A program made the position numbers and the translations under genes. A DNA stretch of 64,000 nt, taken from IMG/VR virus record IMGVR_UViG_3300011189_000001, positions 56,530-120,529 of that record. One strand, given 5' to 3'. The DNA is from a virus. The notes below the pieces were generated by a model. The model was not told where the DNA came from and did not search any database. It worked only from the letters and a program-made list of their open reading frames with translations. Below are positions 54,731 through 61,166 of the stretch, piece by piece (within the stretch, counting starts at the first letter, position 1; every line of letters starts with the position of its first letter).

Positions 54731-55137
54731 TGGAGACGGAGGGAGTCGAACCCTCGTGTCGGAACTCTACTCACAAACGTCGTCTTACGTACATAGCGAC
54801 CATTTGCTCTATTACCCTGCGAAGGGATTTGATGGCAAGTCGAGCGGTCGTCTTTGCTTGCCTCTAGTCTACTACCCTCAAGGGGTTAGTGATTACAACC
54901 TCCACCTATAGACTGGCTTCTATGAGGTACCCTAGTCACCGAAGGGTAAAGCGGGATCTCCGACCATTTACGTCCCGGTCCTTTTATCGGAGTCCGAGGT
55001 GGGACGAACGGCTATGCTGCCGCTGCGTACTGAGTTTCGTCAGTTGAACGAGTATGTCTTTGTTTGTGGCGGTCACATACACCCGCCAGAACGCGACGTC
55101 CATTTTCGTCAGCTCCGGTCGAAACCAGTGCGTCCCC
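54731..55137 (-). ncRNA. ssrA: tmRNA (SsrA)
   Basis: 407 nt. The 5' end GGGGACG (55131-55137) pairs with CGTCTCC (54732-54738) as a tRNA-like acceptor stem with one G-U. It is followed by ACTGGTTTCGAC, the conserved 5' tmRNA motif. The 3' end has the T-arm GGGTTCGACTCCC and discriminator A; CCA is not encoded. An open tag frame in the middle ends SerThrAspGluThrGlnTyrAlaAlaAlaAla then TAG (stop near 55010), much like the ANDETxYALAA tags of proteobacteria, with Ser as the probable resume codon. It rescues stalled ribosomes and marks products for proteolysis. A terminator follows and a promoter precedes it. Confidence 0.93.
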
Positions 55138-56457: not shown

Positions 56458-56760
56458 ATGGCCACGGAAGGCAAGACACTCAAGAGGACTCACCCCGAAA
56501 CGGACCTGCTAGTGACCGCCAGATGGAACCTAGCGGGTTCCGGGATGGTTTACGAGGTTTGGGAAGCATCTGACGACCAAGACCTGTATGATGTGTACAA
56601 CGAAGGTTTTGGTCGGTTGGATACCAAAGTAGAAGGTGCTGATATCGAACGCATCCGGCAAATAATCCGGGACACTTACCCCGTATCCGATGAGGCAGTG
56701 CCCGTAGCTAGTGGGCTGTTACTGGTCGTGTTACGGAGGGGAGTTGACTACGATACGTGA
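56458..56760 (+). CDS. Unknown 100-aa protein
   Basis: It follows the preceding gene by 10 nt with GGAG in the gap. Alpha/beta, with WNLAGSGMVYEVWEASDDQD in the middle. No family is recognised. Confidence 0.6.
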   Translation: MATEGKTLKRTHPETDLLVTARWNLAGSGMVYEVWEASDDQDLYDVYNEGFGRLDTKVEGADIERIRQIIRDTYPVSDEAVPVASGLLLVVLRRGVDYDT

Positions 56761-56802: not shown

Positions 56803-57126
56803 GTGTCGGACCGATTATCGCTTCAGAAATGTGATCAGATATTAGCTCGCGCCCTGAAGGCCCATGAATCGGGCAAAAAGGCGCTGAAGCTATCTACCAA
56901 AGAATTGATCGCCCTCCTGAAATACATCCGTAGCTTGCACACAACCATGAGGGACGTTCAGTTGGACCTCTTGCAAGGGTCGTTTCAGAACGACTTAGAA
57001 GCGTTGCAAAGCGCTGCTGATGCAAGCCTCGACCGTATCGAAAAACAGCTAGGGCCTATCAAGACGTTGTTCGAAGATATATCTGAAGTCGAGATATCGG
57101 AGTTTTCAGATGTCGACGAAGAGTAA
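56803..57126 (+). CDS. Unknown 107-aa coiled-coil protein (GTG start)
   Basis: GTG start with GAGGG upstream. Almost entirely helical, with heptad-like Leu/Ile spacing and an acidic end. It overlaps the next gene by 17 nt. Confidence 0.6.
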   Translation: MSDRLSLQKCDQILARALKAHESGKKALKLSTKELIALLKYIRSLHTTMRDVQLDLLQGSFQNDLEALQSAADASLDRIEKQLGPIKTLFEDISEVEISEFSDVDEE

Positions 57127-57433
57127 GATACCCCACAGGGTCGTGATCAAGATGCTGCGGGACAGTGGCGGCGTCTACGAATATGACGTCCATTACAAGG
57201 ATGCTCTGTCTTGCTTACGTTCCTACCACAAAGAGCGGTTCCCGTCTGAACCAACCGGCGACGACGTGTGCGATTACATTACGTATATGGGCGCTGGGGG
57301 CATCGAAGACCTCATTGGACGCGAGGCTTCACGTGTGTGGGAAAGCCTTTCCACGTGCAGTATCAGCGTCGTTTACAAGCCCCTAAAGATTCAGTCCCCT
57401 TCCGACCGCTTCGCTTACCTTATCGAAAAGTAG
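57110..57433 (+). CDS. Unknown 107-aa protein
   Basis: Alpha/beta, starting MSTKSKIPHRVVIKMLRDSGG. It overlaps the preceding gene by 17 nt, so translation is probably coupled. No domain is recognised. Confidence 0.6.
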   Translation: MSTKSKIPHRVVIKMLRDSGGVYEYDVHYKDALSCLRSYHKERFPSEPTGDDVCDYITYMGAGGIEDLIGREASRVWESLSTCSISVVYKPLKIQSPSDRFAYLIEK

Positions 57434-57440
57434 CACCCTT

Positions 57441-57486
57441 GACAGCCTCTTAGGTCTTACGGTACCAATTAAGATTGGTACGTATT
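57441..57486 (+). promoter_or_regulatory. Candidate promoter and inverted repeat before the RNA ligase gene
   Basis: CCTTGACAG gives a good -35 but the -10 about 18 nt on (TACCAA) is poor. It lies in an 8-bp inverted repeat (GTACCAAT-TAAG-ATTGGTAC, 57461-57480) that could be an operator. GGAGG then precedes the ligase ATG. Confidence 0.35.
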
Positions 57487-57503
57487 GATAAAATGGAGGC
57501 CGT

Positions 57504-58289
57504 ATGTCTGAGCACAAAGTACTCGTAGAACGATTAACCATCCAACAACATCCTGATGCGGATCGTCTGGAGGTAGCGCAGGTGGGGGATTACCAGTCCA
57601 TCGTGATGAAAGACCAGTTCGAAACGGGTGATCTGGCTGCCTACATCCCGGAAGCATCTTTGGTGCCGCAAGACATACTGAAGGAGCTAGGACTTGAGGG
57701 CCGCCTTGCCGGTTCAGATCACAACCGCGTCAAAGCTATCCGACTCCGAGGCGTCCTGTCGCAAGGTATCTGTTACCCGGCAAAGGACGGTTGGGAAGAG
57801 GGCGACGACGTGACCGAAGATTTGGGTATCACGAAATATGAGCCGCCTATCCCCGCCTCCATGTCGGGTGAAGTCTATGCTGCGGGTGGACGCCGGTGCA
57901 TGAAATACGATATCGAAAATATCAAACGGTATCCCGGTGTCCTCAAAGAGGGTGAAGAAGTCGTGATCACGGAGAAGATCCACGGATGTGCGGACAAGGA
58001 CACCGAAATAGAGACGTTGGAACATGGAACTCTAACTATCTCAGAGATTGTAGAAAACAAGATCCCTTGTCATGTTAAAAGTATGAATGTGAAGACCGGA
58101 GATATCTCTTTTGAGTCTGTTGAGGGTTACTCTCAAGATCCTAATGAGGGTGATTGGTATGAATTGGAGATGGAAGATGCTGTTGTGGTTTTAACGGGGA
58201 ATCATCCTGTGTGGTTGCCTGAGTTGAAATGCTACCGTCGAGTTGATCAATTAAAAGGGGATGAGATTTGCTTGCTTGATCGGGACTGA
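57504..58289 (+). CDS. RNA ligase (Rnl5/DRB0094 type), N-terminal part fused to split-intein N-half
   Basis: 261 aa. Residues 1-161 are the N-terminal OB-like domain and start of the nucleotidyltransferase domain of the DRB0094-type RNA ligases, ending in motif I TEKIHG with catalytic Lys158. Immediately after Gly161 begins an intein N-half of 100 aa. It has Cys162 as first residue, a block A (CADKDTEIETLEHGTLTI), and block B with TGNHPVW, where the usual TxxH appears as GNH. It then stops. It needs the C-half at 59250 for protein trans-splicing into a 357-aa ligase. From 57987 the DNA is visibly more A/T-rich than the ligase part. Confidence 0.9.
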   Translation: MSEHKVLVERLTIQQHPDADRLEVAQVGDYQSIVMKDQFETGDLAAYIPEASLVPQDILKELGLEGRLAGSDHNRVKAIRLRGVLSQGICYPAKDGWEEGDDVTEDLGITKYEPPIPASMSGEVYAAGGRRCMKYDIENIKRYPGVLKEGEEVVITEKIHGCADKDTEIETLEHGTLTISEIVENKIPCHVKSMNVKTGDISFESVEGYSQDPNEGDWYELEMEDAVVVLTGNHPVWLPELKCYRRVDQLKGDEICLLDRD

Positions 58290-58354
58290 AAAGACGCATG
58301 GTTATCCTTTTGTGGATTTTCTCTGTAGTTCATTGACTACAGGAAAAGGGAACC

Positions 58355-59257
58355 ATGTCAGACTATGAAGATTGGAATTGTCCTTATTGTAATACTACCT
58401 TACCTCTAAAAAGCAAATACACAAAAAGTGGACATTTATCTAGATGTTCAGCTTGGAAGGAGTGGCGAGACTCCACCCTAACCGAAGAATTCCTTTACGC
58501 ACATTATGTTCAACAAGGGAAAGCCATGTCACACATTGCGCAAGAATTGGGATTATCTTCAGTGGCTACTATTAATAGGAAAATGAAAGAATTTGGGATC
58601 GAAACCAGATCCATCTCCGCAGCTAAAAAGATGCCTAAAGCTAGGCAGAGGGCTAAAGACACACACTTGGATAAATATGGTTCCCCTCATAATTTTTGTG
58701 CTGATCACCCTTCTAGACACGAGTGGGAGGCAAGGCTGCTAGAAGAAGAGGGTATTACCAATGTTTTTCAAAGGGAAAGCGTTAAGGAGAAGATTAAGCA
58801 ATCTTATGAAGAAAGGTATGGTACTAGGAACTTATGGACTCTAGACTGGTATCGCTCCAAGATTGCTCAGTCAATGGTATTCTCTTCCATCCACCAACAA
58901 GTGTACCAATACTTGAGTAAAATAGGAATCCCTTGTTCCGTGGAGTTTCACTTAGATAAAGATGGCGATAAAAAGGCGTTTTTCGACATCCATGTAGAAG
59001 GAACTACCAAGTTGATAGAGGTGCATGGTGATTATTGGCACGCCAACCCTGAAATTTACAATGCGGATGATGTTTTTAATTACCCTCAAGAGAGTATGAC
59101 TGCTCAAGAGAAATGGGATTATGATGCCGAACGTGTAACTTTAGCAAACGAAGCTGGATTCGACGTTCTGGTTTTGTGGGAGAAGGATATTATTAACGAA
59201 GATTGGGAAGATTGTTGCGATAAGTTAGATGAATATATAGGAGTAAAAGATGCCTAA
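58355..59257 (+). CDS. Vsr-like (EDxHD-type) homing endonuclease between split-intein halves
   Basis: 300 aa. It shows an N-terminal zinc finger (CPYCNTTLP ... H...C), an HTH (MSHIAQELGLSSVATINRK, about 50-68), DNA-recognition repeats (KARQRAKDTHLDKYGSPHNF; VKEKIKQSYEERYGTRN), and a C-terminal Vsr-like nuclease with FFDIHV and KLIEVHGDYWH followed by WDYDAERVTLANEAGFDVLVLWE. This matches the free-standing endonucleases described between split-intein genes (fractured genes). The whole gene is A/T-rich. Its end overlaps the start of the C-intein gene by 8 nt, so that gene is probably translated by coupling. It would cut intein-free ligase genes and spread the element. Confidence 0.9.
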   Translation: MSDYEDWNCPYCNTTLPLKSKYTKSGHLSRCSAWKEWRDSTLTEEFLYAHYVQQGKAMSHIAQELGLSSVATINRKMKEFGIETRSISAAKKMPKARQRAKDTHLDKYGSPHNFCADHPSRHEWEARLLEEEGITNVFQRESVKEKIKQSYEERYGTRNLWTLDWYRSKIAQSMVFSSIHQQVYQYLSKIGIPCSVEFHLDKDGDKKAFFDIHVEGTTKLIEVHGDYWHANPEIYNADDVFNYPQESMTAQEKWDYDAERVTLANEAGFDVLVLWEKDIINEDWEDCCDKLDEYIGVKDA

Positions 59258-59960
59258 AAAGGTCAAGATCAAGAGTATCAGAAAACTGGAAAGTCATGAT
59301 TCGGATCGATATGACTTACAGGTCCGTGGGAATCATAATTTTTTCGCCAATGGTGTGTTAGTTCATAACTCATGGTGCCAGATTGGTGTGATCCCTCAGC
59401 AGTTGACCTACCAAGATTACGGGCGTCTCGTCGTATGTTCGAAAGGGCTGGGGTCGAAAGGGCTGGCTTTCAAACCGGAGGCCGAACAGAACGCAAACAA
59501 CCTGTACCTTCGGGTAGCCCGGCACCTCAACGCACTGGAAAGGTTGGCCGATTACGAGGTGCCGATCTTCGTTATTGGCGAGGTGTTTGGCTCAGGGGTC
59601 CAAGATTTGGGTTACGGGGCACACACAAAATCGGATGAGACGTTAGGTTTCCGCGTGTTCGATGTGTACGAGGGTCAACCTCAACACGGTCGGTACCTCA
59701 ACGACGACGAACTCACGCAGTTTTGTGAAGAGCGCGGATTCGAACGGGTGCCGGTACTTTACCGTGGCCCCTTTTCGAAAGCCAAAATGCTTCAACTAAC
59801 TACCGGCGCTGAAACAGTCAGTGGTGAAGAGGCGCATATCCGGGAAGGGGTCGTAGTTAGACCTACAGAGGAGCGGCGTGATCTCCTGATTGGCCGGGTC
59901 CAACTCAAAAGCGTCAGCGACGATTACCTGCTTCGAAAAAACGGAACGGAACTTACATGA
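59250..59960 (+). CDS. Split-intein C-half fused to RNA ligase C-terminal part
   Basis: 236 aa. Residues 1-40 are an intein C-half: block F (YDLQVRGNHNFFANGVLVHN) ends in His39-Asn40, and the first extein residue is Ser41. From there the ligase resumes with SWCQIG, then GEVFGSG (motif III), HIREGVVVRP (motif IV) and RVQLKSVSDDYLLRK (motif V). Joined to residues 1-161 of the N-half it gives KIHG-SWCQ, an uninterrupted motif I. Without splicing neither piece can be an active ligase. Codon use returns to the phage norm after Ser41. Confidence 0.92.
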   Translation: MPKKVKIKSIRKLESHDSDRYDLQVRGNHNFFANGVLVHNSWCQIGVIPQQLTYQDYGRLVVCSKGLGSKGLAFKPEAEQNANNLYLRVARHLNALERLADYEVPIFVIGEVFGSGVQDLGYGAHTKSDETLGFRVFDVYEGQPQHGRYLNDDELTQFCEERGFERVPVLYRGPFSKAKMLQLTTGAETVSGEEAHIREGVVVRPTEERRDLLIGRVQLKSVSDDYLLRKNGTELT

Positions 59961-60553
59961 ACCTGCGCGAACTCAAATGGCTATCGTCTTTACAGACCAA
60001 GTTACAGGATCAAGTGGCGGAGCTTATCAACGAAGATATCCTCTTTAAGGGGATGTATGTGTATAGCCTCAATCAAGTGTCTATCGAAGGCGAAGAGATC
60101 AGAATCGAGGTTAACGTAGAAACCCTTAAAGATAGGACGCTCACCTCTGTCCAATCCCGCCTTCTCTTGAGCGAATTCGTCAAGCTGGGGCGTACTGAGG
60201 ATGAGGTGGAAGAGGTGGAAGAGGATTTCCATGTGAACCGGTCCGTAATCATGCAAATGGCCCGTGATCACGACGACCGCGCCGAGGGGAAGGAACCTAT
60301 GGAACCCGAGGAACCCCAATTGAAATCTATGGAGGGCCTCGACCTCGATGGTGACGGTTATTCATCGCCTTCGGTTCGGCGTGACCGGAGGACGCAAGTA
60401 GCTGAGTTGCTAAGAGGGGTGGAAGGGCGTGCGTCGTTAGAAATGTCGCACAGGGACGCGGGGTATGTTAAGTCCGCAGAGGAAGAATTCCTTGCAGGCA
60501 TAGAGCGCAATGGGATGTGGGCGAAGTTGAATGAGCTTATGGAAGACGAATGA
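59957..60553 (+). CDS. Unknown 198-aa protein co-translated with RNA ligase
   Basis: Overlaps the ligase stop (ATGA). An N-terminal alpha/beta part (VSIEGEEIRIEVNVETL) is followed by an acidic stretch and a helical end. There is no known domain. Tight coupling to the ligase makes a partner role possible. Confidence 0.6.
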   Translation: MNLRELKWLSSLQTKLQDQVAELINEDILFKGMYVYSLNQVSIEGEEIRIEVNVETLKDRTLTSVQSRLLLSEFVKLGRTEDEVEEVEEDFHVNRSVIMQMARDHDDRAEGKEPMEPEEPQLKSMEGLDLDGDGYSSPSVRRDRRTQVAELLRGVEGRASLEMSHRDAGYVKSAEEEFLAGIERNGMWAKLNELMEDE

Positions 60554-60579: not shown

Positions 60580-60620
60580 CAAATTTTTGGTGCAGACCAA
60601 ATTCGATTTTTTTGATTTCA
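60580..60620 (+). terminator. Possible terminator between convergent units
   Basis: A 6-bp stem (TTTGGT/ACCAAA) with a 4-nt loop is followed, after a short gap, by ATTTTTTTG on the plus strand. The stem is weak, so confidence is low. Confidence 0.35.
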
Positions 60621-61166
60621 TTCGGGGGCTTCGGAAGTTAAGCAAGCGGTTTTAGGGATCAGGCCGAACCCCCGCTCAAGCATCCCCGCCACCATGTTGA
60701 ACACTTGATCTGCATCCAGATCCCCTGTGTGAATACATATCTCGCTATCACACCGGAACTCCCAGATATCGGCATTGACCTCAACCGCCGCATCAATGTC
60801 TGTGAACCCGTGGTCACGACGGTCCATACGGGCCATACGGGCCTGTAGCGCTTCCCGGTTCGCAACCAGAGACACTACCCTATGCGTCACCCCCTCCTCT
60901 TTCATAACGTCCACGGGGGCGACGATCTTGCCTTGGTAAAACGTGTCCACAAGCATCACCAGATCACGCCCTTGACGCTCTAAAGCGCCCACAAGAGCCT
61001 GTTGGATAGCTTCGGTATGTTGCCAGTCGTCTGTCCAGTCGTTTTCTGGCAATGCTTGGCGGATGTGATCGACCTCGATCACCACGCTATCCCTGAAGTG
61101 TTCTAGCAAGCTATGTGCGAGGGTGGTTTTACCCACCCCCGGTGCGCCTTGTATGAATAAAATCAT
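60618..61166 (-). CDS. P-loop kinase-like protein
   Basis: 182 aa. The N-terminus MILFIQGAPGVGKTTLAHSL is a textbook Walker A; EVDHIR and a lid segment RMARMDRRDHG (about 107-117) fit a small nucleotide or polynucleotide kinase fold. The substrate cannot be read. Since an RNA ligase is next door, an end-healing 5'-kinase is a fair guess. Coupled or close (8 nt) to the HD hydrolase gene upstream. Confidence 0.7.
   Translation of the reverse strand: MILFIQGAPGVGKTTLAHSLLEHFRDSVVIEVDHIRQALPENDWTDDWQHTEAIQQALVGALERQGRDLVMLVDTFYQGKIVAPVDVMKEEGVTHRVVSLVANREALQARMARMDRRDHGFTDIDAAVEVNADIWEFRCDSEICIHTGDLDADQVFNMVAGMLERGFGLIPKTACLTSEAPE

Follow-up and report, generated by a model that had tools for sequence, protein, structure and literature searches.

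A fractured Rnl5-type RNA ligase gene in a virus record, with a split intein at motif I and a predicted Vsr-like endonuclease gene between the intein halves

The locus described here lies at 57504-59960 (+) of the window, a 64,000-nucleotide stretch covering positions 56,530 to 120,529 of the 120.5-kb IMG/VR virus record IMGVR_UViG_3300011189_000001, and comprises three adjacent open reading frames (ORFs) on the same strand: the N-terminal part of an RNA ligase joined to an intein N-half, an endonuclease-like gene, and an intein C-half joined to the C-terminal part of the ligase. The first ORF (P0001, 57504-58289, +, 261 amino acids (aa)) contains ligase residues 1-161, ending K158-I-H-G161, followed by 100 aa beginning with Cys, and the last (P0002, 59250-59960, +, 236 aa) contains 40 aa ending VLVHN, then Ser41 and 195 further ligase residues; by arithmetic (161 + 196), the predicted spliced ligase has 357 aa. 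An earlier note, made from the letters of this DNA, had proposed a ligase gene in two frames, the first ending in KIHG plus a Cys-started 100-aa intein N-half and the second opening with a 40-aa C-half that ends His-Asn before Ser, and both ORFs, with ligase and intein models matching in the right order, agree with that description. Its reading as a split gene stands for the two intein-bearing parts but had overlooked the endonuclease gene at 58355-59257; the arrangement is that of a fractured gene. A purine-rich ribosome-binding-like sequence (GGAGG; 57490..57503, +) was read upstream of the ligase start, and further ribosome-binding-like sequences were read at ~58340-58354 (+) before the endonuclease and at ~59239-59249 (+; AGGAG) before the C-half. 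An RNA family search of 57000-60500 returned no match, and the split is therefore not explained by a known intron family in that region. Promoter-like sites (6 vs 3.6 expected, standard deviation 2.0) and terminator-like sites (2 vs 2.5 expected) were near chance.

The N-terminal ligase segment (57504..57986, +, aa 1-161) covers the OB-fold domain and the start of the nucleotidyltransferase domain and ends in motif I (57975..57986, +, placed by a 7-sequence alignment). It matched positions 2-171 of TIGR02306 (Rnl5/DRB0094 RNA ligase; E 1.1e-43) and PF21189 (PHA02142 OB-fold; 4.3e-13), and its best PDB relatives were Naegleria RNA ligase entries (e.g. 5cot, 2.3e-13). The C-terminal segment (59370..59960, +, 196 aa from the +1 Ser) matched TIGR02306 positions 178-341 (E 5e-30) and PF09414 RNA_ligase (1.9e-20). 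Scored singly, the two parts reached 149.4 and 104.5 bits, against a TIGR02306 equivalog cut-off of 151.15. K158, H160 and G161 were invariant in the 7-sequence alignment (window ligase, three intact relatives and three other split relatives), and Lys158 is presumably the adenylated residue, from established knowledge of the superfamily. When aligned with the three intact relatives, the C-extein keeps the later nucleotidyltransferase blocks SKG, GEVFG, FRVFD, REGVVV and LKSVSDDY, and the two parts thus hold the N-terminal OB domain and nucleotidyltransferase motifs of an Rnl5 ligase, motifs that we take to be I, Ia, III, IIIa, IV and V. The earlier note put a split intein three residues past the presumed adenylated Lys of an Rnl5-type ligase, and these family models and alignments back that placement; 57504-59960 is confirmed, at the level of sequence, as an Rnl5-type RNA ligase encoded in two parts. 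We infer that either half alone would be inactive and that ligase activity would require trans-splicing.

The intein N-half (57987..58289, +, 100 aa, followed by a TGA stop) and C-half (59250..59369, +, 40 aa, its start codon overlapping the endonuclease stop) carry the features of a class 1 HINT domain: Cys1 (CADKD...), TGNH in block B, block F, and a C-terminal RYDLQVRGNHNFFANGVLVHN/S, where slashes here and below mark the junction. Alone, the C-half scored 34.9 bits with TIGR01443 (cut-off 15.6) and 36.0 bits with the Pfam intein model PF14890, just above its cut-off of 35.8. The best PDB matches of the N-half were DnaE inteins (6e-5), and this half was 33-54% identical to relatives in other ligases.

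The ORF between the halves (58355..59257, +, 300 aa) is predicted to encode a free-standing Vsr-like homing endonuclease, with a Cys/His-rich N-terminus, a weak helix-turn-helix match (HTH_50, 0.0027, under its cut-off) and a C-terminal Vsr-like catalytic domain. It matched phrog_22677 (4.1e-15; phage families of unknown function) and phrog_3339 ('homing endonuclease', 4.1e-10), and a sequence search of the PDB returned no match to Vsr or I-Bth0305I. An AlphaFold (AF2) model built from a nine-row alignment of relatives (mean predicted local distance difference test score (pLDDT) 78.9, predicted template modelling score (pTM) 0.43) was compared with the PDB using Foldseek, which placed Vsr (1cw0, E 1e-3) at rank 1 and I-Bth0305I (3r3p, E 6.5e-3) at rank 2, with probability 1.00. 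Invariant residues among the nine sequences include D211, E222, D226, W228, H229 and D257. With this gene between the halves, the locus is a fractured gene, more than a plain split gene. Counted from Cys1 of the intein through its last Asn, the whole insert measures 1383 bp and has a guanine-cytosine (GC) content of 0.406, against 0.538 and 0.541 in the exteins; none of 1198 sliding windows of insert length and non-overlapping with it was as low (minimum 0.443), a mismatch of the kind expected of a recent arrival.

Uninterrupted relatives were compared at the same site, a check that the earlier note had called for. The best intact relative found (L010, uncultured phage record LR756508) was 45.0% identical in the N-part and 50.5% in the C-part, and this ligase and two from IMG/VR (L006, L007) read straight through as KLHG/TFCC, KIHG/TLMM and KLHG/TFTG, respectively. 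Since all three are continuous across KLHG/T or KIHG/T, the insert is precise; the +1 residue is Ser in the window ligase and Thr in the three relatives. A second record, IMGVR_UViG_3300028377_000003, has the identical split within 10,783 bp that differ by one mismatch, and because the split recurs there an assembly error is less likely, although the two assemblies are perhaps not independent.

Relatives of the intein were gathered from three N-half searches, which returned 40 loci, 21 loci and 27 loci, the latter two sets partly overlapping; the queries carried no ligase sequence, yet every seed intein was from a ligase gene, and this biases the yield. Tabulation covered 73 loci (L104-L147, L165-L191, L025 and L033), leaving out six weak matches (L148-L153, E 2e-6 to 9e-5; by eye terminase or other non-ligase genes) and one Rnl1-like ligase with its N-half in a broken frame (L030). 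At 90% intein identity these formed 46 clusters, the window's own included. Ligase or ligase-like genes are interrupted in 44 of the 46, the remaining two hosts being, by eye, a helicase and a terminase-like gene. The insertion falls directly after K..G of motif I in 33/46 clusters; in others it lies two residues further on (two clusters), one residue before the Lys (one), right after the Lys of a KTDG motif (three), or at a second RNA-ligase site of the KTDEER/CQN type, 20-23 residues before the motif I Lys (5/46). The RNA-ligase split intein of the window is thus no lone case, the same intein family being present at motif I in many ligases of several families. Cys1 is found in 46/46 clusters, in part a consequence of anchoring the matches at that residue, and 40/46 have block B TxxH; the exceptions have Asp (L114) or Asn (TGNN or TSNN in L107, L109, L111, L112 and L116, a KxHG/T ligase group in which the conserved block B His is replaced).

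The ligase labels differ in their basis. A ligase family model matched at least one extein part in 31 of the 44 ligase-labelled clusters, in some through another locus of the same contig and in some weakly (L111, PF09414, 2.5e-4; L124, TIGR02306, 8.8e-4), and the other 13 labels come from alignment or motif only. Families reached by model were Rnl5 (TIGR02306), Rnl1 (TIGR02308), other PF09414 ligases, ATP-dependent DNA ligase (L114, L121, L133) and NAD-dependent LigA (L118, L033). No ligase model matched L112 or L116, whose C-parts are 54% identical to each other (L111 vs L116, 42%), nor the parts scanned of L113/L026 and L125, nor the N-part of L025, the part of that locus scanned. L144, where the scan covered a 72-aa piece, and L172, L173, L174 and L183 were labelled from alignment or motif. 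The KTDG group (L136, L141, L142/143) is ligase-like by motif alone and possibly not made up of ligases; L136 matches phage families of unknown function, cytidyltransferases and ParB-like proteins, and family model scans of L141 found nothing apart from the intein.

Beyond these loci, two scans of bacterial and archaeal genomes with intein alignments found no relative, although such pattern scans, seeded by conserved stretches, can miss. A tblastn search of isolated phages with the N-half of a relative matched 15 records, and none of the three regions examined (Streptococcus phage GXN1, Salmonella phage S16 and one uncultured phage) was ligase-like. In S16 (HQ331142; L155) it is UvsW that appears fractured, as gp114, gp114.1 and gp115; the annotation gives two helicases flanking a hypothetical protein, and tblastn placed an intein N-half at the end of gp114.

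A search of IMG/VR with the endonuclease gave 97 relatives, and 80 of their loci were obtained. Profiles made from the inteins collected here found an intein N- or C-half at 42/80 of these loci and both halves at 29/80; by eye, the hosts include RNA ligases, NAD-dependent DNA ligase, UvsX/RecA, IMPDH-like genes, DnaE and ribonucleotide reductase. At eight loci (L038, L049, L068, L069, L079, L086, L087 and L098) Vsr-like endonucleases adjoin intein C-halves followed by an SxCxTRxxTG-like sequence, which resembles the active-site loop of IMPDH or GMP reductase and would be another active-site insertion. At L027:3995-5549 a Vsr-like endonuclease gene is convergent on an uninterrupted ligase-like gene with KMDGQN, the profiles finding no intein half; homing beside an intein-free ligase is possible there.

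The element takes several forms. The distance from the intein start to the +1 residue is 1.07-1.95 kb in 35/46 clusters, which on spacing alone leaves room for an endonuclease gene. Two Rnl5 loci (L105, L106) repeat the window arrangement at the same site, with intein N-half, endonuclease-like gene (by eye) and intein C-half, and in two Rnl1-type cases (L003/L004 and L031/L032) the endonuclease lies on the strand opposite the ligase. Seven loci (L110, L136, L139, L141, L142, L144, L173) span 466-556 bases, too short for an endonuclease; L176 and L185 span ~0.8 kb; and the Rnl1-type ligase of L128 holds a contiguous mini-intein. One Rnl5-like ligase, in record G003, has its N-part (L122) separated by 5.2 kb from its C-part (L158), with both parts on one strand and still matching ligase models; the gap holds ten same-strand ORFs of at least 50 aa, of which, by eye, one resembles a T4 Pnk-type kinase-phosphatase and none the Vsr-like endonuclease. 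That the two parts are kept at such a distance is hard to explain unless they work together.

Fractured genes other than ligases were seen alongside. The phage record G001 (loci L018/L014 and L015), which carries the fractured Rnl1 ligase, has two more genes in this state, a UvsW-like helicase and an NrdA; the gene lying within NrdA is of GIY-YIG-like appearance by eye. This single genome apparently holds three fractured genes with differing endonucleases. The virus record of the window has a second intein, contiguous and of full-length-intein size, in an ATPase that is actin-like by eye (G000:C1:7800 region; L012); this gene had no match in the other copy of the phage (G002), a record that perhaps does not include that region.

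Relations among the inteins were studied with an alignment of 43 rows and 134 columns in which N- and C-halves were set side by side; the reference set of inteins was small and gathered by similarity. A standard-model tree separated 29 ligase inteins from ten non-ligase inteins, three of the KTDG group and one from an Omegavirus (92.9/94, Shimodaira-Hasegawa-like approximate likelihood ratio test (SH-aLRT)/bootstrap), and in a mixture-model tree the 33 ligase-labelled inteins all fell on the same side of a split whose support was just 52/88 (bootstrap/SH-aLRT). In the latter, the ligase label changes once, against 9.1 times with shuffled labels (0/500 as low), and an approximately unbiased test did not reject the 32 rows without that of Omegavirus phage Phoebus as one clade (p 0.247). 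The ligase inteins therefore cluster, and their monophyly is weakly supported and not proven. An independent invasion of the Omegavirus ligase, which the standard-model tree had suggested, was dropped after the mixture-model tree, which nests this intein, on a very long branch, within the ligase group. Inteins of L105, L106 and L110, all in Rnl5 ligases at the same site, group with that of the window (95/81). Sisters also occur across families: the intein of LigA L033 pairs with that of Rnl5 L139 (97/92), and the L119 intein (Rnl5, site b) is 58% identical to that of L126 (Rnl1) and 60% to that of L113, while the Rnl5 intein of the window is 43% identical to the intein carried by the L119 contig. 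These sister pairs and identities are taken as evidence that the intein moves between ligase families.

The presence of the same intein family at motif I of several ligase kinds suggests that a mobile element has specialised in the active sites of ligases. On balance we favour one split-intein family that would specialise on motif I of covalent nucleotidyltransferases, with or without a Vsr-like endonuclease, and would move between ligase families (Rnl1, Rnl5, other RNA ligases, ATP-dependent DNA ligase and LigA) that share almost motif I alone. As part of that reading, the halves would have drifted apart in some phages, where the ligase would then be an obligate trans-spliced enzyme.

Selection was estimated from non-synonymous (dN) and synonymous (dS) divergence in eight pairs of relatives, with many dS values saturated; dN was below dS wherever dS was finite and non-zero. 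For L112/L116, dN/dS values were 0.367/1.206 in the N-extein, 0.165/0.798 in the N-intein, 0.195/1.428 in the C-intein and 0.467/1.156 in the C-extein. Together with the dispersed pair in G003, these values favour working trans-splicing over decay.

The locus is a genuine fractured RNA-ligase gene, very probably mended by protein trans-splicing to give the whole 357-aa Rnl5-type ligase, a reading to which we assign a probability of roughly 0.87. The three genes would be expressed, the intein halves would pair, and Cys1 and Ser+1 would drive trans-splicing with Asn cyclisation, rebuilding motif I as KIHG-S. The endonuclease would cut insert-free ligase genes near motif I, and repair would copy in the whole 1.38-kb unit (homing). 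Motif I would serve such a unit well as a landing site: losing the insert imprecisely kills the ligase, and splicing is favoured by the Gly at -1 and by a Ser, Thr or Cys that occurs naturally at +1.

Several points weigh against this account. Scored alone, the N-half reached 19.3 bits with TIGR01445 (cut-off 24.5) and also fell below the PF14890 cut-off. The Foldseek E-values for the endonuclease are borderline, at a pTM of 0.43. For window/L105 all four dS values are saturated, so that selection on the window copy is not measurable, and the near-identical second copy, with one mismatch in 10.8 kb, is too little diverged for an estimate. The intein family is known here from metagenomic contigs, and the window N-half had no tblastn match in isolated phages at E up to 0.1. 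Moreover, while the sequences establish the layout of the locus, the conserved intein residues, the homology of its intein and endonuclease to those of the same unit in other ligases, the deviating composition of the insert and the conservation of both ligase parts, co-transcription, splicing, ligase activity, DNA cutting and homing are steps that we infer.

The alternative that survives best, though we consider it unlikely, is a variant that retains splicing and makes it conditional, as a timer or switch for RNA repair: the ligase would stay inactive until both products were made, or until a stress or redox signal permitted Cys1 chemistry. Conditional splicing is documented for other inteins (PMC6195587 and PMC7360933), the insertion lies in a motif needed for the first chemical step, and a P-loop kinase is encoded 0.7 kb away on the other strand; the sequence holds no sign of regulation, however, and a selfish element suffices to explain the locus. 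A dead ligase is improbable. Insertion of the endonuclease would have broken the gene, the intein halves would no longer splice and the phage would manage without its ligase, which is conceivable in that phages can often do without RNA ligases, the N-half gives a poor score by itself, no relative of the window copy is diverged to a degree suited to measuring selection, and the relative L030, with its broken N-half frame, looks decayed. Against such decay, the ligase motifs, Cys1, block B TGNH and HN/S are all intact, the frames are open and preceded by ribosome-binding-like sequences, many phages have the same arrangement and retain both parts, relatives show dN lower than dS, and in one case the two halves persist at a distance of 5.2 kb.

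Marginally less probable again is an active ligase formed by complementing fragments without covalent splicing, the intein remnants acting as a pairing clip only. Split-intein halves are generally known to bind each other tightly, and genes in pieces have a precedent (part of PMC3322345); pure clips, however, would be expected to lose the splicing residues, and here Cys1 (partly by construction) and Asn followed by Ser, Thr or Cys are kept in the listed C-halves. That misassembly or a frameshift made the split out of an ordinary contiguous intein containing an endonuclease domain, as the metagenomic origin of the record and the contiguous mini-intein of L128 might suggest, is highly improbable given the second virus record with the same sequence, the endonuclease's own start and ribosome-binding-like sequence with its stop overlapping the C-half start, the same layout in L105 and L106, and the opposite-strand endonucleases of L003/L004 and L031/L032, which preclude a single-chain reading.

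The neighbouring P-loop kinase gene (60618-61166, -) is of the AAA_33 type (PF13671, 2.1e-11) and matched the polynucleotide kinase family phrog_505 (1e-6); its product may be a partner of the ligase in RNA repair. The window also has a phage-encoded tmRNA gene (54731-55137, -), its tag peptide reading DETQYAAAA.

If splicing takes place as proposed, the ligase would offer a natural, testable protein-splicing step between a phage and an RNA-repair enzyme, placed at the motif that starts catalysis. The wider family provides a ready panel of split inteins with natural G/S, G/T and G/C junctions, and a natural experiment on how inteins change hosts, through DNA homology or by landing at a protein motif with Gly at -1 and Ser, Thr or Cys at +1. 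Fractured ligase genes in metagenomic phages may escape annotation or be called broken.

The closest known kind of arrangement is the 'fractured gene', a name reportedly given by Dassa et al. in 2009 to genes with split inteins and Vsr-like (EDxHD, I-Bth0305I-like) endonucleases, the hosts said to be the gp41 helicase, IMPDH and NrdA/NrdJ. The window locus resembles these in that a phage enzyme of nucleic-acid metabolism is encoded in two ORFs bearing the halves of a naturally split intein, with a C-half of ~40 aa and between them a free-standing endonuclease gene of Vsr-like fold (by borderline E-values). It differs in its host, an RNA ligase broken directly behind the motif of the nucleotidyl-accepting Lys, and in its intein, whose family occurs mostly in ligases. 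A comparison with known split inteins, also proposed earlier, was positive for the C-half, which aligned in the PDB to gp41-1 (6qaz, 1.1e-4) and NrdJ-1 (8ubs, 0.0012), and weak for the N-half (NrdJ-1, 0.092); host and low similarity set the window intein apart from gp41-1 and NrdJ-1, and its N-half is nearer to DnaE inteins. The ligase itself shares its OB-fold domain, motif order and TIGR02306 match with the Rnl5 ligases DraRnl and NgrRnl, which, unlike it, are presumably single chains.

Matches to the N-part were found in 267 phage records, in six of which a single place spanned 80% or more of the query; of those six, gp158 of the Omegavirus mycobacteriophage Phoebus (MK524529) was translated and Hannaconda was viewed as annotation. 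Phoebus gp158, a PF09414 RNA ligase, has an intein at the same site (KLHG/C ... VLVHN/S). Unlike that of the window, this intein is contiguous, occupying residues 198-554 (357 aa) and enclosing a LAGLIDADG domain, and its ligase has no TIGR02306 match. An intein in an ATP-dependent DNA ligase is recorded for one halobacterial genome in a passage of PMC4071816, a case similar in that the host is a covalent nucleotidyltransferase ligase. Campylobacter phage genes split with inteins include terminase, PhoH and ribonucleotide reductase according to part of PMC3322345, which lists an RNA ligase 1 gene and does not state an intein there, and the word 'ligase' is absent from the main text of the mycobacteriophage intein survey PMC5050341. 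The earlier suggestion that a split intein in an Rnl5-type RNA ligase, three residues from the catalytic Lys, may be new is in keeping with the open-access literature, where titles and abstract openings among the matches listed held no report of an RNA-ligase intein, which is weak evidence of novelty. The fractured-gene kind is thus known, and the host enzyme and the focus on the active site across ligase families appear to be new.

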